Shown here: positions 19,196 to 43,252 of the stretch, in pieces
How positions within the stretch are numbered: position 1 is the stretch's first letter
Layout of the letters: each line of letters starts with the position of its first letter
Assembly (NCBI GenBank): GCA_027459765.1
Contig: DAIDHD010000006.1
Location: 1-64,000, forward strand
Direction: 5' to 3'
From: Gammaproteobacteria bacterium
Lineage (GTDB): Bacteria; Pseudomonadota; Gammaproteobacteria; Steroidobacterales; Steroidobacteraceae
Length of the DNA stretch: 64,000 nt
Position numbers and translations under genes: made by a program
The notes under the pieces: model-generated
The model's database searches: none
What the model saw: only the letters and a program-made list of their open reading frames with translations
Told to the model about the DNA's origin: nothing

Positions 19196-22100
19196 TTAGA
19201 ACTCCGCCCAGTCCGCGTCGGCGCCGTTCGCCACCTTGGCCGGTGCGGCGGCACGCGGCTCCTTGCCGCCGGCCTTGTTCCACGGCCGACTCGGCGCGCG
19301 ACGGTCCGAGCGGGCCGGAGCGCTCGCCGCGGCCGGCGGAGCCTTCGCCGGCGGCTTGGCTTCCTGGCTGGCCTGCATCGCGGCCACCGCGGCCTCGGCG
19401 GCCGCCTTGGAGATGCGGTAGCGCGCCATCATGGTGCTGAGCGCGGTCGCCTGCCCGGCCACCGACTGGCTGGCGGCCGACGCCTCTTCGACGAGCCCCG
19501 CATTCTGCTGCGTCATCTCGTCAAGCTGCATCACCGCCTTGTTGACCTGCTCGATCCCCGAAGACTGTTCCTGGCTGGCCGCGGCGATCTCGCCGATGAT
19601 GTCGCTCACCTTCTTGACGGCGGCGACGATCTGCTCGAGCGTCTCGCCCGACTGAGTCACGAGCTGTGAACCCTCATCGACCTTCTTGACGCTGTCCTGG
19701 ATCAACCGCTTGATCTCCTTGGCGGCCGTTGCGCTGCGGCCGGCGAGGTTGCGTACCTCGCTCGCCACCACCGCGAAGCCCCGGCCCTGCTCGCCGGCGC
19801 GCGCCGCCTCGACGGCCGCGTTGAGCGCGAGGAGGTTGGTCTGGAAGGCGATCTCGTCGATGACGCTGATGATGTCGACGATCTTGCGCGACGACTCGTT
19901 GATTTCGGTCATCGCGCGCATCGCCTGCGACACCACCACGCCGCCCTGGTCGGCCTGATCGCGGGCCGCGGTCGCGAGCTGGCTCGCCTTGCTCGAGTTG
20001 TCCGCGTTCTGCTTGACGGTGGAGGTCATCTCCTCCATCGACGAGGCGGTCTCCTCGAGGCTCGACGCCTGCTCCTCGGTGCGCTGGCTCAAGTCGGTGT
20101 TGCCCTGCGAGATCTCCTCGGCGCCGCGCGAGACCTCCTGGGCCGCGGCCTGCACCCAGCCGACGATCTGCGTCATGTTGTCGGCCATCTTGTTGATGCC
20201 CGCGGCGAGCATCTGGAAGAAGCCGGTCTTGCCCTCGAGCGGGATGCGCTCCTCGAAATTGCCGTCGGCGACCGCAGTGACGATCCGCTCCACCTCGCGT
20301 TCCACGGCGAGTTCGACCGTCCGGTCGTTCCACTCCACCACCGTGCCGAGACGCTTGCCGCTCGGATCCAGCATGGGGTTGGCGATGATGCGCAGCGTCC
20401 GTCCGCCCACCACGAACTGGCCGGTGTGGGTCTTGCTGAGCGACGCGAGCATGCTGCGCTGGTGCGACGGGTTCTTGTGGAACACGTCGATGCTCGCACC
20501 GATGAGCCGCGAGGCGTCGAAGTTCGGCAGATCCTTGCGCAGGTCGGACTGCGCGTTGGTCATCATGTCGTGCATCGAGCGGTTGGTGTAGATGATGTTG
20601 AGGTCGTTGTCGGCCACCATCACGTTGGAGGTGAGGTTCTCGAGTGCGCCCTTGAAGGCGGCGTTCATCTCGGCCTCCAGGCGCTGCTGCGTGACGTCGG
20701 TGGCGTACTTGACCACCTTGAAGGGCCGGCCGTTCATGTCCAGGATCGGGTTGTAGCTCGCCTGGATCCAGACTTCCCTGCCACCCTTGCCGATGCGCTT
20801 GTACTGGCCGGCGTCGTATTCGCCGCGGTTGAGCTTCTCCCAGAAGGCGCGGTACTCGCCGGTGTCGCGATGCGCCGGATCAACGAACATGCGGTGGTGC
20901 TGGCCGCGGATCTCCTCGAGGGTGTAGCCCAGCGTCTTGAGGAAGTTCTCGTTGGCGGTGATGACGGTGCCGTCGAGCTTGAATTCGATCACCGCCTGCG
21001 CCTTGCTCACCGCGGCGAGCTGGCCCTCGAAGTCGGCCGCGCGCAGCTTCTGCTCGGTGATTTCGGTGGCGTACTTGACGACCTTGAACGGCTTGCCGTT
21101 CATGTCCATGATTGGATTGTAGCTCGCCTGGATCCAGACTTCCTTGCCACCCTTGCCGATGCGCTTGTACTGCCGCGCGTCGTACTCGCCGCGGGCGAGC
21201 TTCTCCCAGAACGCCCGATAGTCGGCGCTGTCGCGATACGCCGGCTCCACGAACATGCTGTGGTGCTTGCCGCGGATCTCCTCGAGGGTGTAGCCCAGTG
21301 TCTTGAGGAAATTTTCGTTGGCGGTGATGACGGTGCCGTCGAGTTTGAACTCGATCACCGCCTGCGCCTTGCTCACCGCCGCGAGCTGGCCCTCGAAGTC
21401 GGCCGCACGCAATTTCTGATCAGTGATATCCGTGGCGAACTTGGTGACCTTGAAGGGCTTGCCGGTGGAGTCGAGGATCGGGTTGTAGTTCGCCTGCAGC
21501 CACACCTCGCGGCCGTCGCGCGCGATGCGCCGATACTGGCCGGACTGGTGCTCGCCGCGACGCAGCTTGTCCCAGAAATCGCGGTACTCGGGCGAATTGC
21601 GTTCGGCGGCGTCGACGAACACGCTGTGGTGCTTGCCGACGATCTCCTCCGCCGTGTAACCCATGAGCTTGAGGAAGTTCTCGTTGGCGCGCAGCACGTT
21701 GCCGTTCATGTCGAAGTGGATCGCGGCGCGCGAGCGGTTGACGCCGGCGAGCTGACCTTCCGCGTCGATGGTGCGAAGCTTGGATTCGGTGATATCGATG
21801 GCGCAGTTGAGCACCTTATGCGGCACGCCCTTGGCGTCGAGCACCGGAGTGTAGGTGGCACGCATCCAGATTTCCCGCCCGTCCTTGGAGACGTACTTGT
21901 GGTGCGCGCAGTCGGTCTCGCCGCGGCCGAGTTTGTCCCAGAAGGCGCGGTACTCGGGCGTGTCGCGGCGTTCCGGCGCGACCAGCATGCGGTGGTGCTG
22001 GCCGCGAATCTCCTCGAGCGTGTAGCCGAGGACCTTGAGAAAGATCGGGTTCGCATCGACGATCGTGCCGGAGAGCTCCAGCTCGATCATCGCCTGCGAG

Positions 22101-22210
22101 TGTTCCATGGCGCGAAACAGTGCCGCCACGTCCCTGGCCGGGGACTTGCGGGAGGACTTGGCGCTCGCGGACCGGGCGGACGAGGACGATTTGCTGGCGG
22201 ACTTGGACAT
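19196..22210 (-). CDS. Soluble PAS-repeat methyl-accepting chemotaxis protein
   Basis: Chemoreceptor of 1004 residues without a membrane segment, so it is probably cytoplasmic and senses through PAS domains. After a Ser/Lys-rich start come four similar PAS-PAC units of 122 residues (about 28-145, 150-267, 272-389, 394-511), a fifth divergent PAS (about 515-625), then the MCP signalling region with hairpin-tip sequence [20 protein letters not shown]. The last residues, DADWAEF, fit the xWxxF peptide that tethers CheR/CheB. ATG 22210 has GAGGAA six bases upstream. It lies 53 bp downstream of the FleQ-like gene on the same strand; the che operon is 13 kb away. Confidence 0.93.
20690..22130 (-). 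repeat. Four tandem 366-bp PAS-coding repeats inside the chemoreceptor gene
   Basis: The PAS-PAC coding units repeat with a 366-bp period. For example, GTTGGCGGTGATGACGGTGC occurs at 20951 and again at 21317. Units 3 and 4 are nearly identical in protein (e.g. [19 protein letters not shown] in both) and very close in DNA, whereas units 1 and 2 are more diverged. This indicates stepwise in-frame duplication with the latest event involving units 3 and 4. Boundaries given are approximate. Confidence 0.85.
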
Positions 22211-22263
22211 TGCGGTTTCCTCTGAAGCGGTTTTTCCTGCGCGCTCTCGCGGGCTAAAGGCCC

Positions 22264-23553
22264 TCAGGCGCGCGCCAGTCGATTCTCGGCCCCGGGTATC
22301 GGGCCCATGCGGCACGCGACGGGACTTGCCTCGTCGATCACCCGCTGTATCGTCGACCGCGGCGCGGACTTGAGCGACTTGCGTCGCAGTTCGATCGCCC
22401 CGGCTCGCGGCGCCGACGGCTCCGCCGGGCGGTAACGGTCGGGCAGCTGTGACGGCTCGATGCAGCCCTGCGGATGGAGGATGGCGAGCCGCTCGAGGAG
22501 GTTCTGCAACTCGCGCACGTTGCCGCGCCAGTCGTGCCGGGCGAGCGTCGCGACGGTGGCGCGCGCGAGCTGCGGCGCACGTCCACCCTCGGCACGGCGC
22601 CGCGCGCCGAGCTGCTCGATCAGTGCCGGCAAGTCCTCGATGCGCTCGCGCAGCGCCGGCACCCGCAGCGGGAAGACGTTCAGGCGGTAGTAGAGGTCCT
22701 CGCGAAACGTGCCGGCGCCGATGGCGGCATCGAGGTCCCGATGCGTGGCGGCGACGATGCGCACGTCACAGCGGATGCTGCGATTGCCGCCGACGCGCTC
22801 GAAACAGCGTTCCTGCAGCACGCGCAACAGCTTGACCTGCATGGGCGCCGGCATATCGCCGATCTCGTCCAGGAACAGCGTGCCGCCGGCGGCGTACTCG
22901 AAGCGCCCCACGCGCGCGGTGAGCGCACCGGTGAAGGCGCCCTTTTCGTGACCGAAGAGTTCGCTCTCCAGGAGCTCGGGGGGAATGGCGCCGCAGTTGA
23001 CCGGCACGAACGGACCCGCGGCGCGCGCCGACAGCTCGTGCAGGTGGCGCGCCACCAATTCCTTGCCGGTGCCGGACTCGCCGAGCACCAGCACGGTGGC
23101 CTCGGTGGGTGCGACGCGCTCGATCAGCGCGCGCAACTCGCGCATGGCGGCGGAATCCCCGCAGGGACGGAAGTGAACCTCGCCGGCGCGTTGGGTGTGG
23201 CCGCGGCGCTCCGCCTGCGCCACCGCATCGGCGAGCGCGCGGTGCTTCACCGGCGCAGTCAGTGCGATCAGGTCAAGGTCGGTCTGCCGCACGAGCCCCG
23301 AGGGCGCGCCGATGCAGATCACGGGCACCGGCCACGACGCCTGCGCCAGGGTGGCAAACAGTTCGGCACGGCAGTCCTGGAGCGTTTCGACCCGCAACAG
23401 CACCGCCGTCCAAGGACTGACCGAACCGTCGAGTGCCGGCCACTCGCTCGGTGCGCCGATCCGCACCGTCGGCAAGTCGATGAATTCAAGCAGCCGTTCG
23501 AGGGCGGCGGCTTGCGAGGCGTCAGGCTCGATGAGCAGGATCTTCGCGGCCAT
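22264..23553 (-). CDS. FleQ-like sigma-54-dependent activator with degenerate C-terminus
   Basis: Bacterial enhancer-binding protein of 429 residues. The N-terminus ([23 protein letters not shown]) is FleQ-type, receiver-like but without the phosphoacceptor Asp. The AAA+ domain (about 135-370) has Walker A GESGTGKE, the sigma-54 contact loop GAFTGA, Walker [14 protein letters not shown] and the R-finger region. The C-terminal Fis-type HTH is not recognisable: after [10 protein letters not shown] the sequence reads [19 protein letters not shown] instead of the usual A-x-x-LG-hxxxTL pattern. ATG 23553 has GGAG seven bases upstream. It may still activate RpoN without strong specific DNA binding. 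The chemoreceptor gene follows. Confidence 0.85.
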
Positions 23554-33634: not shown

Positions 33635-34780
33635 ATGCAAAATGCCGACGTGTTGGTCATCGGTGCCGGGATCGCGGGCGCATCCGTGGCAGCCGAACTC
33701 GCTCGCGATCGCAGCGTCATCGTCGTCGAGGCGGAAGCCCGCCCCGGCTACCACTCCACGGGCCGCTCGGCGGCGTTGTACTCGGCCAACTACGGCAACG
33801 TGACCATCCGCGCGCTCACCCGCGCGAGCCGCGGCTTTTTCTCGGCACCCCACTCAGGCTTCACCGACGGCCCGTTGCTGCGTCCGCGCGGCTCGCTGTT
33901 CATTGCGAACGCCGCCCAGGCGGCGGCCCTGGCCGCCTTCGCGGCGCTGCCGGACGTGGCGGCCGACACCCGTCTGCTGGATGCGGCCGCCGCGCGCACC
34001 CTCTGTCCGGTGCTGCGGGAGGATTACGTGCACGGCGCGCTGCTGGAAGCCGACTCGGCCGACGTCGACGTGGCGGCGCTTCACCAGGGATACTTGCGTC
34101 AACTGCGACGCGGCGGCGGCCGCCTGCTCACCAACGCACCGGTGCACGCGCTCGAGATGCGCGGCGGCGTGTGGCAGGTACGGGCCGGCGCCGAGACCTG
34201 CACCGCAGCCGTGGTGGTGAACGCCGCCGGCGCCTGGGCCGATCCGGTCGCGCGGCTCGCCGGCCTTGCGCCGCTCGGTCTGCAGCCACTGCGCCGCTCG
34301 GCCGCGCTGATCGACGTGCCAGCGCACTCGCCGCCCGATCGCTGGCCGATGGTGATCGACGTCGACGAGCGCTTCTACTTCAAGCCCGACGCCGGGCGGT
34401 TGCTGATCTCGCCGGCGGACGAAACGCCGGTCGCGGCCGGCGACGCACAGCCGGAGGACGAGGATCTGGCCGCCGCCGTCGAGCGCATCGAGACCGCCAC
34501 CACGCTCGGCATAGAGCGCCTTCGGCATCGCTGGGCGGGCCTGCGCACCTTCGCGCCGGACCGCACGCCGGTGGTGGGATTCGACGACCGCGCCAGCGGC
34601 TTCTTCTGGCTCGCGGGCCAGGGGGGTTACGGCATCCAGACCGCGCCGGCGCTCGCACGCAGCGCCGCGGCCCTCGCGCGCGGCGAGTCATTGCCGGCGG
34701 ACGTGGCCGATCTCGGCGCGAGCGCCGCGGACCTGTCACCGTCGCGGTTCGCCGCGCGCGCTACGTCAAAGGGAGAGTAG
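33635..34780 (+). CDS. FAD-dependent oxidoreductase, DadA/glycine-oxidase-like
   Basis: A 381-residue flavin amine/amino-acid oxidoreductase of the DAO fold. The dinucleotide-binding motif is DVLVIGAGIAGASVAAELA followed by an acidic strand end (VIVVEAE). Family landmarks include GYHSTGRSAALYSANYG, VVVNAAGAWAD, the RWPMVIDVDERFYFKPDAGR segment, and the C-terminal FAD motif LAGQGGYGIQTAPALAR. The substrate is undetermined. ATG 33635 starts the Rossmann strand; the upstream site is weak (AGGTGG at a distance). Its 3' end overlaps the convergent CheC-like gene by 15 bp. Confidence 0.85.
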   Translation: MQNADVLVIGAGIAGASVAAELARDRSVIVVEAEARPGYHSTGRSAALYSANYGNVTIRALTRASRGFFSAPHSGFTDGPLLRPRGSLFIANAAQAAALAAFAALPDVAADTRLLDAAAARTLCPVLREDYVHGALLEADSADVDVAALHQGYLRQLRRGGGRLLTNAPVHALEMRGGVWQVRAGAETCTAAVVVNAAGAWADPVARLAGLAPLGLQPLRRSAALIDVPAHSPPDRWPMVIDVDERFYFKPDAGRLLISPADETPVAAGDAQPEDEDLAAAVERIETATTLGIERLRHRWAGLRTFAPDRTPVVGFDDRASGFFWLAGQGGYGIQTAPALARSAAALARGESLPADVADLGASAADLSPSRFAARATSKGE

Positions 34781-35239
34781 CGCGATTTGCCCGTTGCCGT
34801 ACTTGGCCATGGTGAGTGCGAAGTCCACGCGACCCTTCGCGCCACCGAGGATGTCCTTCGCCGCCGGCGGCAGCGCCGCAACCGGGTACACCTTGTCGAG
34901 CTTCAGATGCGGCGAGGTGTCGGTGATCAGCAGCCGGGTACCGATGTTCATGATCTCGGCGAGATTGGCGAGCATCACGTCGGTGAGTTCCTTGGTCTTG
35001 ATCGAGTCCTTGGCGATGCCCGGCGGAAGCATGGACAGCGCCGCGCCGCCGTTGGCTGCGAACGGCAGGTCGCACGCGCACAGCGCCACCGGCTTGCCGT
35101 CGTCGGCGATGAACACGGCCGCGTAGGCGGTCGCCGCGGCATCGAGTTTTGGCCCGGGCTTGACCTCCAAACCGTCGAACAGGATCCCGAACATCGTCTT
35201 GACGCGCATGACGTCGGGCAGTGGATACAGCGTGCTCAC
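34766..35239 (-). CDS. CheC/CheX-like chemotaxis protein
   Basis: A 157-residue protein downstream of cheY2 in the same unit (14-bp gap). It is related in outline to the CheC/CheX/FliY phosphatase family: the helix TDVMLANLAEIMNIGTRLL carries the E-x2-N-x-G core. A Pro (DKVYPVA) follows 21 residues after the Asn, close to the family spacing. The first acidic/Ser position of the family motif is not conserved, so activity on CheY-P is uncertain. The other half (FGILFDGLEVKPGPKL and CACDLPFAANGGAALSM) would form the paired strand layer. GTG 35239 is the start. It probably acts on the adjacent CheY2. Confidence 0.55.
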   Translation of the reverse strand: MSTLYPLPDVMRVKTMFGILFDGLEVKPGPKLDAAATAYAAVFIADDGKPVALCACDLPFAANGGAALSMLPPGIAKDSIKTKELTDVMLANLAEIMNIGTRLLITDTSPHLKLDKVYPVAALPPAAKDILGGAKGRVDFALTMAKYGNGQIALLSL

Positions 35240-35253
35240 GGCCGCGCGTCCCG

Positions 35254-35616
35254 TCAGCCGATGTGCGGCCCGAGGATCTCCTTGAAGGACTCGGGCGTGA
35301 AGGGTTTCGAGATGAGGAAGCGCGCGCCGGCGCTGGTGGCGCGCTCGCGCATGTCGGGCGTGGCCTCGGTGGTGACGAACCCGAACTTCAGCTTGATGCC
35401 TTCCTTGCCGAGGGACTCGAGGAGTTCGAGCCCCGTCATGTTGGGCATGTTCCAGTCCGAGAGCACGAGGTCGGGCGCCGCCGCCTTGATGGCGGCGAGC
35501 GCCTTGGCACCGTCCTCGGCCTCGACCACGTCATGACCCTCGAAGCCGGCGAGTCGCAAGGTCTTCTTGACGATCATCCGCATGGCGCTCGAGTCGTCGA
35601 CGATCATGATCTTCAT
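35254..35616 (-). CDS. cheY2: CheY-like single-domain response regulator (second copy)
   Basis: A 120-residue stand-alone receiver: pocket MIVDDSSAMR, phospho-Asp about residue 54 in LVLSDWNMPNMTG, Thr in FVTTEAT, and Lys about 104 in FLISKPFTPE. The W-N-M-P after the Asp and the SKPFT ending are typical of motor-type CheY. ATG 35616 is preferred to the upstream track start; GGAG lies ten bases in front. It has its own sigma-28-like promoter and is followed by the CheC/CheX-like gene, so the two may form a switch-and-phosphatase pair separate from the first cheY. Confidence 0.92.
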   Translation of the reverse strand: MKIMIVDDSSAMRMIVKKTLRLAGFEGHDVVEAEDGAKALAAIKAAAPDLVLSDWNMPNMTGLELLESLGKEGIKLKFGFVTTEATPDMRERATSAGARFLISKPFTPESFKEILGPHIG

Positions 35617-35662
35617 TACAGGGTGTCTCCGCGGTAGTGGCACCGTTGCCGGTCTGCAGATG

Positions 35663-35712: not shown

Positions 35713-36585
35713 TCATTGCAGGAGTCCCCTAACCTCGGCCAGGCCGTCTCGGGCGGCGACCACCACCTCGGCTGCGCAGGCCGGGTCCACGCCGACCATG
35801 CGCCACTCGGCGTCCGGTATCGGCGTCACGTCGCCGAGGTCCGTGCTCTCGATCTGCGCCAGGGTGGCCAGCCGGTCGGCCACGGCGACCTGTGCCGCCG
35901 CCGCCTGGTACGCACCGGCTCTTGCAGGCTCGCCGTAGAACTCGATGCAGGCCGCCAGGCTCGACGGCAGGTTCCAGCGCTGCGCGAGCACCGCGCCGAC
36001 CTCGCAGTGCGTGAATCCCAACACCCGCCGCTCGTGCTCGAGCAACGGCGCATCGTCGGGGTCGTCGGCCCAGGCGAGCAGCGCCGTGCGCGCCTGCTCC
36101 GGCCGGGCGCGGAACAGCAGGAGTTGCCCGACGGCGTGCATGAGCCCCTCGACGAAGGCCGATTCGGCCTGCACGCGGCGACCGGCGCGCAGCGCGAGTT
36201 CGCGCGCGGCCAGGCCCGACAGCATGCTGTGGGTCCAGAAGTCCTGCATGGTCATCAGGCTGGAAGGAATGCGATCGAAGCTGTGCACGGCGGCGACGCC
36301 GAGCGCAAGGTCGCGCACCGCCCGCATGCCGAGCACGGTGACCGCGCGCGACACCGTGCCCACCTTGTGCGAAAGACCGATGGCCGGACTGTTGGCGAGC
36401 TTCAGCAGGCGCGCGGTCAGCGCCACGTCGGTGAGCACCACCGACTCGAACATGGCGATGGTCGCCGCCGGATCGTCGGCGAGCGCGCACACCCGCGCGG
36501 CCGCGGCCGGCAGACTGACCATGGCGCCGACCTCGTCGACCACCGCGGCCGGACCGCCGTCCGCGATCGCGCCCGCCGCGCTCAT
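35713..36585 (-). CDS. HDOD-domain signalling protein
   Basis: A 290-residue protein consisting mainly of one HDOD domain (about 20-215), a catalytically degenerate HD relative found in bacterial signalling proteins. Landmarks are [50 protein letters not shown] and [15 protein letters not shown]. The His-Asp pair of true HD phosphohydrolases is not kept in AVGQLLL. Its ATG overlaps the cheB stop (ATGA), making it the last gene of the main che operon. HDOD proteins often sit beside che genes, but the exact role is unknown. Confidence 0.88.
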
Positions 36586-37727
36586 CCGGCGGCTTCCGAG
36601 GGGATGCGCGAGCCGACGCGCGGCGTGCGCGCCGCCTCGATGACGCGCGCAGCGATTGCCTCGAGCGGCAGCATCTCGTGCGCGGCGCCGAGCTCCCAGG
36701 CCGCCCGCGGCATGCCCCAGACCACGCTGGTGGCCTCGTCCTGCACGAAGTTCAGCGCGCCCGCCTCGCGCATTTCCTGCATGCCGGCGGCGCCGTCGCG
36801 GCCCATGCCAGTGAGCATCACGCCGATGGCGCTCGCGCCCACGTTCTGCGCCACCGAACGGAACAGCACGTCCACCGACGGCCGGTGGCGGTTCACCGGC
36901 GGCCCGTCATTGAGCTCGCAGCGAAAGCCCGCGCCGTCCGGCACCACCAGCAGGTGCTGGTCGCCGGGCGCGATGTACACGTGCCCAGGCTCGATCGGCT
37001 GCCCGTCCTGCGCCTCATGCACCGTGAGGTCGCAGTGGGCGTTCATGCGGCGCGCGAACGGCCCGCTGAAGGCCTGCGGTATGTGCTGGGTGATCACCAC
37101 CGCCGGCGAGTCCGGCGGCATGTCCATCAGCACCTCCTTGATCGCCTCGGTGCCGCCGGTGGAGGCGCCGATCGCGATCAGACGCTGCATCGAACGCCGC
37201 TGGGCGCTGAGGGCGCGCCGCGGCAGGATGATGCTGGCGTCGTACTTCTCGGGAACCACCAGCGCCGTTTGCTCGGGCGCAGGACGCCGCTCGGACGCTG
37301 TGCGCTCCGGCGCCGTGCGAACGTGCGCGAGCGCCGCCGCCTTGACCTTGGCGGTGATCTCCTCGGTGGCGGCGCGCAACTCCCCAAGATTCTCCACCGA
37401 TGGTTTGGCGATGAAGTCCACCGCGCCGAGTTCGAGCGCCTCGAGCGTGGTGGTGGCGCCGGCCTGCGTCAGGGTCGAGCACATCACCACCGGCATGGGC
37501 CTCAGGCGCATGAGGTTGCGCAGGAACGCAAGCCCATCCATGCGCGGCATCTCGACGTCGAGCGTCAACACGTCCGGGTCGAGCGCCTTGATCTTGTCGC
37601 GTGCCACGTACGGGTCCGGCGCGCTACCGACCACCTCGATCTGCGGATCCGAGGAAAGAATCTGCGTGAGCAGCCGGCGGATCGTCGCCGAGTCGTCCAC
37701 CACCAGCACCTTGACCTTTTCTTCCAT
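36582..37727 (-). CDS. cheB: Chemotaxis response regulator / protein-glutamate methylesterase CheB
   Basis: Demethylates and deamidates chemoreceptor glutamates for adaptation. The 381 residues comprise an N-terminal receiver ([10 protein letters not shown], phospho-Asp about 57 in [13 protein letters not shown]), a linker of about 50 residues rich in Ala/Glu/Arg, and the C-terminal methylesterase with Ser in [11 protein letters not shown], His in [11 protein letters not shown] and Asp in [11 protein letters not shown]. All triad residues are present. It lies 12 bp after cheD and overlaps the HDOD gene. Confidence 0.95.
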
Positions 37728-37739
37728 GCGGCCCGCTCC

Positions 37740-38390
37740 CTAGAACAGTTCCACCGAACCGGCGGCCTGCGGCGCCGGCAGCGAGACCTGCCGCTCGCGC
37801 TCGAACACCGCCAGATTCGCGGTCGGATTCAGTCGCTTGACGCGCACCTTGCCGGAGCGCGGATCGTAGAAGAGCTTGCGCGCGAACCGGTCGCCGAGGT
37901 CGGCCGCCGCGATCGGAAAGCCCTCGGTGCGCAGGTACTCGCGCACGAACGCGGCATTGCGCCCGCCGACGTCCATCTCCATGTTGAGTACCTTGCCGCC
38001 GCCCACCACCTTGAATTCGAGATTGGCGCGCTGGCAGCCGAGCTTCATCAGATCGTTGATGAGGTATTCCATGGCGACGTTGCCGTAGCGGGTCGCGGCG
38101 GACAGATCCACCGACGCCCAGGAACTGGCTCCGCCCGAACCGTCGAGCGGCAGCATGAAGTGGTTCATACCGCCGATGCCGAGCCGCGTGTCGCGCACGC
38201 ACGCCGAGACACAGGAACCGAGCACCGTGTAGAGGAGTTCGGGGTGCCGGGTCACGTAGTACTCCCCGGGCAGCAGTCGCGCCACCACGCTCTGCTGGGC
38301 GTCGTCCCAGGCGCGTTTGATGTGCGCGAACTGCGGCAGGGGCGGCATGTCCGCGGGCGCGGGCGAGCGTCGGGCCACATCGGAGAGCAC
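37740..38390 (-). CDS. cheD: Chemoreceptor glutamine deamidase CheD
   Basis: Deamidates receptor glutamines and can interact with CheC-type phosphatases. The 216-residue protein has the CheD Cys-His-Thr active site: VLGSCVSACVRD (Cys), IGGMNHFMLP (His), and a downstream Thr/Ser near RYGNVAMEYL. An extra N-terminal stretch of about 20 residues is rich in Pro/Ala. The start is GTG 38390, exactly after the cheR stop codon, so translation is coupled. It ends in GSVELF, the same ELF ending as the CheZ-like protein in this operon. Confidence 0.93.
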   Translation of the reverse strand: MLSDVARRSPAPADMPPLPQFAHIKRAWDDAQQSVVARLLPGEYYVTRHPELLYTVLGSCVSACVRDTRLGIGGMNHFMLPLDGSGGASSWASVDLSAATRYGNVAMEYLINDLMKLGCQRANLEFKVVGGGKVLNMEMDVGGRNAAFVREYLRTEGFPIAAADLGDRFARKLFYDPRSGKVRVKRLNPTANLAVFERERQVSLPAPQAAGSVELF

Positions 38391-39227
38391 CTAAACCCTC
38401 CGGTAGGCCGTGCGCCCCACCAGCCGATAGCGCTGGGAGACGTTGAAGAGGTTCTCGGAGTGCCCGATGAACAGCCAGGCTCCCGGCTCCTGCAGATCGG
38501 CCATGCGGTCGAACAACTTGCGCTGGGTCGGCTTGTCGAAGTAGATCACCACGTTGCGGCAGAAGATCACGTCGAATGGACCGCGCATGGGCCAGTCGTG
38601 CAGGAGGTTCAGCTGTTTGAAGCTGATCAGGCTCTTGAGGTCGGAACTTGCGCGGAACGCGCCGCCCTCGGTGCGCTCGAACCAGCGCTCCCGTCGCGCC
38701 GCCGCCATCTTGCCGATCGCGTCCGCCGAGTACTCGCCGCGCGCTCCCTTGGCGAGCACCGCCGAGTCGATGTCGGTGGCGAGGATGCGCGCGTTCCAGC
38801 TCTCGAGCCCCGTGAATGCCTCGCGCAGCGTCATCGCGATGGAATAAGGCTCCTCGCCGGTGGAACACCCCGCCGACCAGATGCGCAGGCGCCGGCCGGC
38901 GGCGCGCTTCTGCCGCACCTCCGGCAGGACCTGCTCCGCGAGCTGGCGGAAGTGATGGTCCTCGCGGAAGAACGAGGTCAAGTTGGTGGTGATGGCGTTG
39001 GTGAGCGCCTCGATCTCCTCCGGGTGCCCCTCCTCAACGAGGTCGCAGTAGTCCGCGAAGGTCTCCAATCCGAGTGCGCGCAGCCGCTTGGCGAGACGTC
39101 CGTACACGAGCTCGCGCTTGGCGTCCGACAACGCGATGCCGGTGGAGTGGTGCACCAGCGTGCGCAGCCGCTCGAACTCAGCGTCCGTGAGCACGAACTC
39201 GCGCAATTCCGCCGACATCCCCGACAT
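38391..39227 (-). CDS. cheR: Chemotaxis protein methyltransferase CheR
   Basis: Methylates chemoreceptor glutamates using S-adenosylmethionine. The protein of about 278 residues has the helical N-terminal domain (FERLRTLVHHSTGIAL), TNLTSFFREDHHF, the SAM-binding motif RIWSAGCSTGEEPYSIAM, and FDVIFCRNVVIYFDKPTQ. ATG 39227 has GGAG eight bases upstream and is preferred to the GTG at 39236. A chemoreceptor in this window ends in DWAEF, a fit to the peptide recognised by tethered CheR enzymes. Confidence 0.95.
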   Translation of the reverse strand: MSGMSAELREFVLTDAEFERLRTLVHHSTGIALSDAKRELVYGRLAKRLRALGLETFADYCDLVEEGHPEEIEALTNAITTNLTSFFREDHHFRQLAEQVLPEVRQKRAAGRRLRIWSAGCSTGEEPYSIAMTLREAFTGLESWNARILATDIDSAVLAKGARGEYSADAIGKMAAARRERWFERTEGGAFRASSDLKSLISFKQLNLLHDWPMRGPFDVIFCRNVVIYFDKPTQRKLFDRMADLQEPGAWLFIGHSENLFNVSQRYRLVGRTAYRRV

Positions 39228-39239
39228 TGTCGTCACTCC

Positions 39240-39752
39240 TCAGAACAGCTCGATCGCCCCTGCCACCGCCGCACTCTCGGCGCCATGTGCCACCCCCGTC
39301 GCCGCGGCGACATCTTCCCGCGGCGTCGCCGCCGCACCCTCGCGACAGGGTTCCGGGACCATCGCGGCGAACAACGTGCGCTCCTCGTTCATCGTGAACG
39401 CGGCCAGCTGGCGCCGCCGCAGCTCGCTCAATCGCTGCGCCGTCGCCGGCACTGCCGCGGGCTGCGCGAGCGCGCGCAGCGCCTCCGCAACGTGCGTCAA
39501 CTGCTGCACCAGCCGGTCGTGCACCTGGACCGCCGTCACCACCCGCGCGAAGGCACCTCGGCGGGTCGCGGTCTCGGCGGCGTCCGACGCCGCCGAACCC
39601 TCGATCAGATCGCCGAGCGCCGCCAGCACCTCGCCCGTGGCGTCGCGATCGAGCGCGAGCGAGGCCTCGATCTGCGTCGCCGCCCACTCGAGCCAGTGCC
39701 GCTGCCAGTCGGCGTCGACGGCGGCGGTCGCTTCGCGCTCGACCCGGGCCAT
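39240..39752 (-). CDS. Putative CheZ-like phosphatase / che-operon accessory protein
   Basis: A 170-residue, mostly helical protein. I do not recognise a clear full-length family. The central helix TAVQVHDRLVQQLTHVAEAL contains D-x3-Q (D-R-L-V-Q), the spacing of the catalytic Asp/Gln of E. coli CheZ (DLTGQ), in a similar amphipathic context. The last residues GAIELF recall CheZ's C-terminal CheY-binding peptide and match CheD's VELF ending. No other CheZ candidate was found in the operon. ATG 39752 lies four bases after the STAS stop. The function is inferred from these motifs and position only. Confidence 0.5.
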   Translation of the reverse strand: MARVEREATAAVDADWQRHWLEWAATQIEASLALDRDATGEVLAALGDLIEGSAASDAAETATRRGAFARVVTAVQVHDRLVQQLTHVAEALRALAQPAAVPATAQRLSELRRRQLAAFTMNEERTLFAAMVPEPCREGAAATPREDVAAATGVAHGAESAAVAGAIELF

Positions 39753-39756
39753 GAAT

Positions 39757-40026
39757 TCACGCCTGCGCGCGCGCCGCGCCCGCAAGGCCGAGCGCGGTCT
39801 CGACGCCGATCAGGCGCGCGGCTTCCCGCAGGGCGTCCGACGCCCCCTGCCAATCGAGCGGCCCGCGGCTGCGCGCCGCGGCGACCAGCACCTGCAGCCC
39901 GGCGGTGTCGATCTCCAGCACGCGCGCAGCGTCGATGCGCAGCGGGCCGCCGCCCGCGTCGGCCGCGAGTCTTTGCCGAAAGGCGGCCACTTCGGCGATG
40001 GTCAGACGTTCGGGCAGCTCGATCAT
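39757..40026 (-). CDS. STAS-domain protein (anti-sigma-antagonist type)
   Basis: A single STAS domain of 89 residues: ERLTIAEVAAFRQRLAADAGG, LRIDAARVLEIDTAGLQVLVAAAR, and a C-terminal helix DALREAARLIGVETALG. The phosphorylatable position is Thr in EIDTAG, the place of the regulatory Ser/Thr of SpoIIAA-like proteins. ATG 40026 overlaps the cheW stop (ATGA); the longer track ORF (to 40161) lies over cheW. STAS proteins between cheW and cheR occur in other gammaproteobacterial che operons; no partner kinase is in the operon. Confidence 0.85.
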   Translation of the reverse strand: MIELPERLTIAEVAAFRQRLAADAGGGPLRIDAARVLEIDTAGLQVLVAAARSRGPLDWQGASDALREAARLIGVETALGLAGAARAQA

Positions 40027-40559
40027 GCCGCTGCCACCTCGAGCACCGCGTCGGCGGCGACGGCGTCGTCGGCCACCAGAAGGTCCACGTCGAGCAGAAT
40101 GACCATCTTCTTCTCTACGGTGGCGAGCGCCTTGACGAAGCGCGACCCCAGGGTGTGGCACTCATCCGGAGGCGCCAGAAGATTGGCCTCGTCGATGTTG
40201 TAGACCTCGGAGACCGCATCCACCACGATCCCGACGGTGCGTTCCCCGCGGCTGCCGTTGGCGCGCAGCACGATCACCACGGTGGTCGGGCCGAAGTCCA
40301 CCGTATCGAGGCCAAAGCGCTGCCGCAGGCCGAGAACCGGCACCACCGCGCCGCGCAGATTGATCACCCCGAGCACGTAGCTCGGCGTGCGCGGGATGCG
40401 CGTGGCGGTATCCCAGCCCTTGATCTCCTGCACCCGCAGGATGTCGACGCCGTACTCCTCGCCCGCGAGCATGAAGGTCAGGTATTGCTTGGCGTCGCCC
40501 GCCTGCGCCTTGCCGCCCTTCTGCGCCATCGCGGTCAAGGCCGAATTCTCGTCGCTCAT
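40023..40559 (-). CDS. cheW: Chemotaxis coupling protein CheW
   Basis: Adaptor that links chemoreceptors to CheA. The 178-residue protein has a 25-residue polar N-terminal extension, then the CheW domain: KQYLTFMLAGEEYGVDILRVQEI, RTPSYVLGVINLRGAVVPVLGL (receptor/CheA contact region), VGIVVDAVSEVYNI and the final strand KKMVILLDVDLLV. A short Ala/Asp/Val tail follows. Located 47 bp after cheA, it overlaps the STAS gene. Confidence 0.95.
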   Translation of the reverse strand: MSDENSALTAMAQKGGKAQAGDAKQYLTFMLAGEEYGVDILRVQEIKGWDTATRIPRTPSYVLGVINLRGAVVPVLGLRQRFGLDTVDFGPTTVVIVLRANGSRGERTVGIVVDAVSEVYNIDEANLLAPPDECHTLGSRFVKALATVEKKMVILLDVDLLVADDAVAADAVLEVAAA

Positions 40560-40607: not shown

Positions 40608-42845
40608 TCAGGCCGCGCGTACCGCGCGCCGCTCGCTGCGGGCCGCGCGCGCGGCCCCCGCCCGAAGCTCGTCGGCCGAATTACGGTCGATGAGTCCGGG
40701 CACGTCGATGATCAAAGCCACCGTGCCGTCGCCGAGGATGGTGGCCCCGGCGAGGCCGCGCACCTGGCGGAAGTTCTTCTCCAGACTCTTCACCACCACC
40801 TGCTGCTGCGCGAGCAGGTCGTTGACCAGCAGGCCGACGCGTTTGCCGTCGGCCTCGACCACCACCAGCAGCCCGTCCTCGGTGGCCTGGCGCCCGCCGG
40901 AGACGTCGAACATCTCGTGCAGCTTGATGACCGGGATGTATTCCTCGCGCAGCCGGAAGAGCTCGGTGCGGCCCGCGATGGTCGACAGCTGGTCCTTGCG
41001 GACCTGGATGGTCTCGACGATGGCGAGGAGAGAGATCACGTAGGTCTCGCTGCCGACGCGCACGAGCTGTCCGTCGAGGATGGCGAGCGTGAGTGGCAGA
41101 CGGATGCGGATGACGCTCCCGTGGCCCTCGCGCGAGGTGATCTGCACCTGACCGCCGAGGTCGTTGATGTTGCGGCGGACGACGTCCATGCCGACACCAC
41201 GGCCGGAGACGTCGCTGATCTGGTCGGCGGTGGAGAACCCCGGCATGAAGATCAGATTGTGGATCTGGTCCTCGCCGAGCTCCTGGTTCGGATCGACGAG
41301 ACCGCGGTCGCGCGCCTTGGCGAGAATCTTGGCCTTGTTGAGCCCGCCGCCGTCGTCGCGCACCTCGATGATGATGTTGCCGCCCTCGTGGAAGGCGGCG
41401 AGTTCCAGCAATCCGCTCTCGGGTTTGCCGACCGCGAGCCGCCGCTCCGGCGTCTCGATGCCGTGGTCGAGCGAGTTTCGTACGAGGTGCACCAGCGGAT
41501 CGCTGATCTTCTCGAGCACGGTCTTGTCGAGTTCGGTGCCCTCGCCGGTGAGCCGAAGGTCGACCTTCTTGCCGAGTTTGCGCGACAGGTCGTGAACCAG
41601 GCGCGGGAAGCGGTTGAAGGCGAAGCTGATCGGCATCATGCGCACCTGCATGACGCTCTCCTGCAGGTCGCGGGTGTTGCGCGCGAGCTGCGCGAGCCCC
41701 TGGCGCAGGCGCTCGAGATCCTCCGGCTCCACGCCGTCGGCGAAACGGTTCAGCATCGACTGCGTGATCACGAGCTCGCCGACCAGATTGATCATGTGGT
41801 CGACCTTCTCGGTGGCGACCCGTATCGAACCCGCCTCGGCGGACGCCTTGGCCGCCGCCGGCGCCGCGGCCGCGGCAGGCGCGGAAACCGCGACCGGCGC
41901 TGGCGTAACGACCGGCGCTCGCGCGGCGATCTGCGCTGGCGCAGCGACCGGCGCTGGCGCCGCCGGGACGGGCCTGGGCGCAGGCGTCGCCGCGGCCACA
42001 GGTGCGGCAGCCGGCGCCGCAATGGCGGCAGGCGGCGGCGCGGCTACGGCCGGCGCTGCGTCCTGCGGTCCGAACGGCATGAAAGTCAGACGGCACGCCG
42101 GGTCGACCCAGTCGAAGATCTCGTCGAGCGCGGACTTCGACACTTCGCCGCGCAGTTCCAGGTCCCAGGCGAGATAACAGGACTCGGGGTCGATGTCCGC
42201 CAGCGCCGGCACGGCGCCGAGGTCGGCACGCACGGTGAGCTCGCCGAGACGCGCGAGCTCGGCGAACATTCGCGTCGGTTCGTTGCGCAGCTTGAGAAGT
42301 GCGGGAACGGGTTCGAAGCGGATGCGCCAGCCCGCGCCCACGCCCGCGCTGGCAGGCGCAGCCGCTTGGGCACCCGCCGCCGCGCGCTCATCCGCCGCCG
42401 GGCCCGCGGTCGACGGCGGTTCGGACGCCGCGGCCGCCGCGGCGTGCACGCCCGGGGCGGCGAGGATCTCGCCGATCTCGCGATTGAGGGCTTCGATGCG
42501 CGCCTGGTCGAGGGCACGGCCCTCCTCGGTCGCCGCCATCATCTCGCGCAGGCAGTCACAACCCTGCAGCAGGACCTGCGTGCCCTCGGGCGTGATGGCG
42601 CGCTTGCCGTTGCGCATCTCGTCGAGCAGGGTCTCGACGCCGTGGGTAAAATTGGCCACCTCCGCGAAGCCGAAGGTGGCGGCGCCGCCCTTGATCGAGT
42701 GGGCCGCGCGGAAGATCGTGTTGATGGTCTCGCGGTCGGCGCTCGCGTCGAGGTTGAGTAGCCCCGACTCCATCACGTCGAGACCCTCCTTGCACTCCTC
42801 GAAGAAGACCTTGGCGATCTCCATCATTTCCGGATCAAGATTCAT
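40608..42845 (-). CDS. cheA: Chemotaxis histidine kinase CheA
   Basis: Receptor-controlled kinase that phosphorylates CheY and CheB. The 745 residues show an Hpt domain with phospho-His about residue 49 (RAAHSIKGGAATFGF), a divergent P2-like region (about 170-270, containing GWRIRFEPVPALLK), a low-complexity Ala/Pro linker (about 275-345, repeated PAP/APV), the dimerisation helices, the kinase domain with N-box HLVRNSLDHGIE and G-boxes DDGGGLN and GRGVGMDVV, and a CheW-like C-terminus. ATG 42845 has GAGGA eight bases upstream; the track ORF extends too far. It follows cheY by 44 bp. Confidence 0.96.
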   Translation of the reverse strand: MNLDPEMMEIAKVFFEECKEGLDVMESGLLNLDASADRETINTIFRAAHSIKGGAATFGFAEVANFTHGVETLLDEMRNGKRAITPEGTQVLLQGCDCLREMMAATEEGRALDQARIEALNREIGEILAAPGVHAAAAAASEPPSTAGPAADERAAAGAQAAAPASAGVGAGWRIRFEPVPALLKLRNEPTRMFAELARLGELTVRADLGAVPALADIDPESCYLAWDLELRGEVSKSALDEIFDWVDPACRLTFMPFGPQDAAPAVAAPPPAAIAAPAAAPVAAATPAPRPVPAAPAPVAAPAQIAARAPVVTPAPVAVSAPAAAAAPAAAKASAEAGSIRVATEKVDHMINLVGELVITQSMLNRFADGVEPEDLERLRQGLAQLARNTRDLQESVMQVRMMPISFAFNRFPRLVHDLSRKLGKKVDLRLTGEGTELDKTVLEKISDPLVHLVRNSLDHGIETPERRLAVGKPESGLLELAAFHEGGNIIIEVRDDGGGLNKAKILAKARDRGLVDPNQELGEDQIHNLIFMPGFSTADQISDVSGRGVGMDVVRRNINDLGGQVQITSREGHGSVIRIRLPLTLAILDGQLVRVGSETYVISLLAIVETIQVRKDQLSTIAGRTELFRLREEYIPVIKLHEMFDVSGGRQATEDGLLVVVEADGKRVGLLVNDLLAQQQVVVKSLEKNFRQVRGLAGATILGDGTVALIIDVPGLIDRNSADELRAGAARAARSERRAVRAA

Positions 42846-42889
42846 TTCATAATCCTCGCAAGCATCGGTGCCGCGGCCGTGCGGACCCT

Positions 42890-43252
42890 TCAGATCACCT
42901 TGGCGATGGTCGACAGCAGCTGCTCGGGATTGAACGGCTTGACGATCCATCCCGTGGCGCCGGCGCGCTTGCCGTCGACCTTCTTCTCCTGGCTCGATTC
43001 GGTGGTGAGGATGAGCATGGGCACGAACTTGTAGTCCGGCAGCGCCCGCAGCTCGCGCACCAGGTTGATGCCGTCCATGCGCGGCATGTGCACGTCGGTG
43101 AGCACCAGATCGGCGCGCGACTCCTTGGCGAGTTCCAGGGCCTCGACCCCGTCACAGGCTTGCACGACCGTGTATCCCGCCCCCTGCAGGGTGTAGCGGA
43201 CCATTTGGCGCATGGAAACCGAGTCGTCCACCGCGAGAATTGTCTTGGCCAC
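42890..43252 (-). CDS. cheY: Chemotaxis response regulator CheY (operon-leading copy)
   Basis: A 120-residue receiver: pocket AVDDSVSMRQ, phospho-Asp about 53 in LVLTDVHMPRMDG, Thr in LILTTESS and Lys about 105 in WIVKPFNPEQ. First gene of the main che operon, in front of cheA. The V-K-P-F-N ending is typical of CheY copies coupled to CheA in such operons. Its promoter region holds a sigma-28-like element 40 bp upstream. Confidence 0.93.
   Translation of the reverse strand: MAKTILAVDDSVSMRQMVRYTLQGAGYTVVQACDGVEALELAKESRADLVLTDVHMPRMDGINLVRELRALPDYKFVPMLILTTESSQEKKVDGKRAGATGWIVKPFNPEQLLSTIAKVI

Follow-up and report, generated by a model that had tools for sequence, protein, structure and literature searches.

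CheZ is laid out as a hairpin, a linker and a C-terminal helix that binds CheY, and it carries the signature AxxFQDxxxQ (PMC7750401). In B. subtilis, CheD is coupled to CheY-P together with CheC (PMC3513319). On the receptor side, the C-terminus of McpA-like chemoreceptors has a Val at position 2 of the pentapeptide and is highly conserved, while its role is unclear (PMC7184735). According to a passage of the same paper that cites earlier work, this Val form of P. aeruginosa McpA binds 0/4 CheR proteins. A review of V. cholerae describes E-W/V-E-X-F on the receptors of system III and proposes it as the site for CheR3 (PMC11940527). In the operon described here, a small protein that we call X carries a D-x3-Q motif and shares a short C-terminal tail with CheD.

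The window, by which we mean the whole stretch of 64,000 nucleotides that was analysed, contains a chemotaxis operon on the minus strand with the order CheY1–CheA–CheW–STAS–X–CheR–CheD–CheB–HDOD–second CheY–CheX-like. X is a CheZ-like protein of 170 aa (39240..39752), with an ATG at 39752 and a TGA at 39240; its family is conserved and it has no Pfam CheZ match. Directly upstream of X lies a gene for a STAS-domain protein (39757..40035, PF13466), preceded by CheW (40023..40559, PF01584) and by CheA (40608..42950), which was assigned from its ORF and orthologs and whose true start is probably slightly downstream. The operon begins with CheY1 (42890..43252), the proposed substrate of X, recognized by ORF and homology; the model of its ortholog is 47% identical to V. 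cholerae CheY4. X is followed by CheR (38391..39236, PF01739 and PF03705), CheD (216 aa, 37740..38390, PF03975 with E 9.6e-28), CheB (36582..37727, ORF and orthologs), an HDOD protein (35713..36585), the second CheY (35254..35643) and the CheX-like protein (34766..35239), which has the conserved motif NxxE[IV]MNI and no Pfam match. The operon seemingly holds two CheY/phosphatase pairs, the second of them formed by the second CheY and the CheX-like protein that follows it. This pair recurs at ten of the other loci (L063, L073, L084, L087-L091, L095 and L099). The CheX-like protein could itself be the phosphatase of one of the CheYs, a point against X in this role.

The earlier note had read a D-x3-Q motif in a helix of this small che-operon protein, and the translation bears this out. 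The internal sequence AVQVHDRLVQQLTHV holds D79-x3-Q83, and the surrounding AVQVHDRLVQ (residues 74–83; 39504..39533, minus strand) forms an AxxF-like site in helix 2, predicted to span residues 58–96. By our estimate, about 0.3–0.5 single D-x3-Q motifs are expected by chance in 170 aa. The motif alone is not significant in X; it counts because it is conserved across relatives. We gathered these relatives from whole genomes and from named contigs. The named contigs with X loci include those of Thiobacillus denitrificans, Colwellia psychrerythraea and Chitinibacter. Since a motif pattern served to retrieve the named-contig set, the frequency of D-x3-Q in it is partly built in; the first whole-genome sets were not retrieved in this way. 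In a first alignment of 15 relatives, D79, Q83, H87, L92 and the final F are invariant. When 56 X sequences are aligned, with identities down to 12–20%, D79 and Q83 are the only invariant positions and the final F is kept in more than 90%. All 127 distinct complete family members in the partly motif-retrieved set have D-x3-Q (127/127), and the aligned relatives share the context AxQF[HY]DRLxQRLxHV. One candidate member, at L014 in genome G012, was rejected as an HDOD-GGDEF protein. X is a member of a widespread family that neither Pfam nor NCBIfam recognizes.

An AlphaFold2 prediction for X, made with a 56-row alignment, has long helices at residues 2–52 and 58–96, two short helices and a disordered tail, with a mean pLDDT of 81. 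In this single-chain model the long helices form a hairpin, and D79 and Q83 sit in the middle of the second one. The consensus AxQF[HY]D places A and F in the CheZ register with H or Y in place of Q, and the window X itself reads AVQVHD. With its hairpin, motif and C-terminal peptide, X could be taken for a remote CheZ ortholog that has diverged and is too short to be recognized by profiles, and H. pylori-type remote CheZ proteins do exist. The profile comparisons speak against this reading. The CheZ profile PF04344 does not match the window X, for which Pfam gives only three weak, unrelated matches, and CheZ is absent from the 25 Pfam families most often matched by the 56 relatives. Sequence searches of Pfam, NCBIfam and the PDB with X returned weak coiled-coil noise and nothing meaningful. 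Alignment of the X profile with hhalign against 19 CheZ sequences of the same genomes gave a probability of 0.1%, and Foldseek with the X model returned nothing significant, with no CheZ among the matches listed. The X alignment also has no sign of the other invariant positions of CheZ, for example the PDAKERL region. True CheZ proteins in X-bearing genomes end in DDLLSSLGF, whereas X ends in GAIELF, and many genomes carry both proteins. Homology of X to CheZ was rejected, being unsupported by Pfam (56 members), hhalign and Foldseek, and descent of X from CheZ by divergence seems to us improbable. X is not filed as CheZ because it fails the CheZ profile test. What stands of the earlier suggestion of a CheZ-type protein is the analogy, which is well supported by the motif context, the predicted hairpin, the operon and the absence of CheZ from the flagellated genomes of the genus; membership in the CheZ family does not stand.

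The distribution across genomes bears on this analogy. Seven genomes of the window's genus have a solid X match (G000, G001, G007, G009, G011, G018 and G021); all of them have FlhA (7/7) and none has a PF04344 CheZ (0/7). The three sampled genomes without X lack FlhA (3/3). In the seven flagellated genomes, a small number, no CheZ-like protein other than X was found. Only two MCPs were found in the window's flagellated genome. In other lineages a true CheZ is present alongside X in 36 of 54 X genomes, and a general replacement of CheZ by X is rejected on that count. At least two che genes lie near X in 42 of the 135 loci examined, most loci having no other che gene nearby, and cheY directly precedes X in seven loci other than that of the window. 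At two orphan X loci (L065, L070) a CheV-like gene is found two genes downstream, with typA-like GTPase genes adjoining. We consider X to be probably an analogue of CheZ. Its helical hairpin would enter the active site of CheY1-P with D79 and Q83 and speed dephosphorylation, a mechanism that motif, fold and genome context make equally probable in our judgement, and X would stand in for CheZ in the flagellated, CheZ-less lineage of the window.

The same pairing of motif and CheY is found in a second architecture. The X profile detects receptors of ~400 aa that contain QFQDRVxQ, and the two domains are therefore related. These receptors, which have tails of the DITFF/DVTFF type, form MCP–CheY–CheA clusters (L101-L105, L281-L300), and cheY lies directly downstream of the QFQDxxxQ/xxFF MCP in 19 of 20 loci. 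They are possibly receptors with a built-in CheY phosphatase. D-x3-Q and a tail occur together next to CheY in both architectures. Large proteins of ~1100–1500 aa from one other family of the phylum (f212; L361, L363-L367, L369, L371-L374 and L376-L380) also contain a related D-x3-Q domain, with QNIDRVxQ and then RYVMEEER; the N-terminal part of these proteins resembles, at a guess, an ion-channel regulatory protein. The kinship with receptors lends itself to another reading of X, as a structural or inhibitory partner of CheY, CheA or receptors that arose from the end of the MCP coiled coil and uses D-x3-Q for helix packing. In MCPs the related domain does lie where the coiled coil ends on its C-terminal side, and many orphan X genes come from genomes that encode a true CheZ as well. 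We regard this as unlikely, since D and Q are the most constant positions of X while their neighbours vary, and the X-bearing flagellated genomes of the genus have no other CheZ.

The C-terminal ends given in the earlier note, GAIELF on X (39243..39260) and GSVELF on CheD of the same operon (37743..37760), are both confirmed in the translations: X ends in ESAAVAGAIELF and CheD in PAPQAAGSVELF. The pattern RTNGANYTNTTYTRR has only two matches in the 3.34-Mb genome of the window, and these are the exact ends of X and CheD. A reversed control of the pattern also has two matches in this genome. It is the placement of the two matches, not their number, that exceeds chance, as both are in-frame gene ends in one operon. 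Around 80 X loci the tail is carried by 93 of 7181 stop-to-stop ORFs (72 X, 17 CheD and 4 others), and a separate set of 5606 ORFs near X is similar, with the tail almost only on X and CheD. Among the 127 complete X members, an exact [VI][ED][LF]F end is found in 112, and the number rises to 122 when short extensions or near variants are allowed (about 90–96%). CheD has the tail in 31 of 35 X loci. Conservation in orthologs, which had been proposed as a check, therefore holds for the D-x3-Q of X, whose D and Q are invariant in the 56-sequence alignment, and for the tails of both proteins.

The tail of CheD does not depend on X. In 20 genomes without X, 17 CheD proteins carry it, and two near variants are also found (GDAELF, GDVTLF), so the idea that CheD has the tail because of X was rejected. 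In a phylum-wide sample, the tail is present in 21 of 24 long CheD proteins and in 0 of 6 short ones (157–164 aa). It appears near-universal on long proteobacterial CheD, whether X is present or not. We did not adopt a reading of the tail as a PDZ ligand, since in some cases a few additional residues are present (VELFES, IELFTDDLAESR). In the xxFF clusters, CheD usually lacks the tail. In one cluster (L103/L285), CheD ends in ADITFF beside an MCP that ends in EEITFF, and the same genome, G313, encodes a CheD of the ELF type elsewhere (L237). This switch of tail type, shared by MCP and CheD, is suggestive as a single case and is not statistical.

When 37 X genomes were scanned for ends of the form [DE][VI][ED][LF]F and 60 of the places were inspected, the tail proved to extend beyond this pair. 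The inspected places comprise 18 CheD, ~30 chemoreceptor-like proteins, GGDEF proteins at L221 and L255, a protein with a receiver domain (L268) and a number of frames that are short or spurious. Of the tail-bearing receptor-like proteins, 19 have QF[EQ]DxxxQ or QYEDxxxQ near the end of the coiled coil. Three chemoreceptors with a CZB-like zinc-binding C-terminal domain (L229, L231 and L236) also have a [VI][ED]LF tail. These GGDEF proteins and a further one at L208 are diguanylate cyclase-like and end in SDVELF (L208:9463-10509), NDIELF (L221) and ADVELF (L255), sequences that hint at a link of c-di-GMP to the same docking tag. One operon (L151) has tails on three proteins, X (DDIELF), CheD (GSVELF) and a receptor (GEVELF). 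With CheB before it and a STAS-like gene after it, this receptor sits where F7 clusters have their McpA-like receptor. The earlier idea of an ELF docking tag common to X and CheD is supported, with the amendment that it is not limited to the pair, being found also on many chemoreceptors and on CheD in genomes without X.

Because the tail is conserved across unrelated proteins, we think it likely to be a functional docking motif that binds one common partner or one family of partners. The disordered C-terminus of X would then be a short linear motif, [VI][ED][LF]F, acting as a docking tag common to X, CheD, McpA-like and other chemoreceptors and some c-di-GMP proteins. One conceivable partner is the adaptation machinery: the [VI]ExF tail would be a variant of the receptor pentapeptide tether (NWETF, GWEEF) that docks on CheR/CheB and gathers the adaptation enzymes by way of X and CheD. 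The tail has the length of the pentapeptide, the same place at receptor C-termini, an acidic middle and a final F, and the proposed CheR3 site of V. cholerae includes the Val form. The multi-PAS chemoreceptor of the window (19196-22315, minus strand) ends in DWAEF, a classical CheR/CheB pentapeptide, which counts in favour of the tether. Yet the genome of the window has the W-type tail on this receptor and the V/I-type on X and CheD, a difference that points to separate partners. The aromatic residue at position 2 of the tether pattern x-[HFYW]-x2-[HFYW] is replaced by V or I in the tails of X and CheD, and the result reported for the Val form of McpA also speaks against docking on CheR. We hold a variant tether to be quite improbable.

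The tail might instead direct its bearers to a scaffold of the array or the cell pole (for example a CheW-/ParP-like or polar protein) that collects receptors, CheD, X and diguanylate cyclases. Such a tag would suit the great diversity of the bearers, which share nothing but the chemosensory array: receptors with or without D-x3-Q, CZB receptors, CheD, X, GGDEF and REC proteins. It would also suit a CheD tail that is present with or without X. On the other hand, the ELF and TFF types follow particular clusters, even within G313, which fits a cluster-encoded partner better, and no scaffold candidate was found. A scaffold therefore seems a doubtful partner, though less so than the adaptation enzymes.

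The leading candidate, put forward tentatively and at somewhat less than even odds, is the cognate CheY, which would bind the tail as it binds the peptides of CheZ and FliM. We favour it because both architectures combine D-x3-Q with the tail next to CheY, and because CheZ, too, has a second contact of this kind. Such binding would couple CheD directly to CheY-P, the job of CheC in Bacillus, and CheD could take part in feedback. Tails on receptors without D-x3-Q and on CheD without X are explained less naturally by CheY as the only partner. AlphaFold2 of an artificial CheY–X fusion (L092, with the stop read as Gly) folded CheY and X well and left the tail disordered (pLDDT ~40), giving no support for docking on CheY. 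In its broadest form, the proposal makes [VI][ED][LF]F a common CheY-P docking tag of beta- and gammaproteobacteria on CheD, McpA-like receptors, the X family and some diguanylate cyclases, through which CheY-P would recruit phosphatase, deamidase and c-di-GMP output directly; so wide a role is unlikely. The combination of X as a CheZ analogue with a shared docking tail is our best explanation of the whole, and we hold it with slightly better than even confidence. The conserved sequences, the gene neighbourhoods, the pattern of co-occurrence and the predicted fold are what the analysis shows; catalysis, docking partner and feedback are deduced from them.

This combination bears on how CheY-P is switched off in CheZ-less systems and on the input of CheD where CheC is absent, as well as on what the conserved C-terminus of McpA-like receptors does, a role described as "important yet unclear" (PMC7184735). 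One short tail links CheD, McpA-like receptors and a CheZ-like family, and it provides concrete peptides, residues and genes. Searches of the open-access literature found no description of the X family or of the CheD tail, and X seems to represent a family of CheZ analogues with a chemotaxis docking motif, apparently undescribed on CheD and X.

Compared with described systems, X resembles CheZ (PF04344) in its predicted helical hairpin, in an AxxF[x]-like D-x3-Q motif that lies in the second long helix, in the flexible linker that leads to a short C-terminal peptide with a final F, and in its che-operon gene. It differs from CheZ in lacking any Pfam or profile match and the invariant PDAKERL region, in being shorter, in a tail of IELF/VELF as against DDLLSSLGF, and in coexisting with CheZ in many genomes. 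CheC, CheX and FliY are alternative CheY-P phosphatases, as is proposed for X, but they have a different fold and an E-x2-N motif, and a CheX-like protein is separately encoded in the operon of the window. McpA-like receptors of F7 systems (P. aeruginosa McpA, V. cholerae Mlp44) appear from published descriptions to carry the tail of X and CheD (PMC7184735, PMC11940527). This likeness rests on size, on operon position (after CheB and before STAS in L151) and on the Val at position 2, and many of the tail-bearing MCPs found here also have QFEDxxxQ; McpA-like receptors are transmembrane proteins, whereas X is small and soluble. Like the pentapeptide of CheR/CheB (NWETF, GWEEF), the tail is a short acidic C-terminal motif with a final F and a flexible linker before it; unlike the pentapeptide, it has V or I in place of the aromatic residue and is also found on CheD, X and GGDEF proteins.
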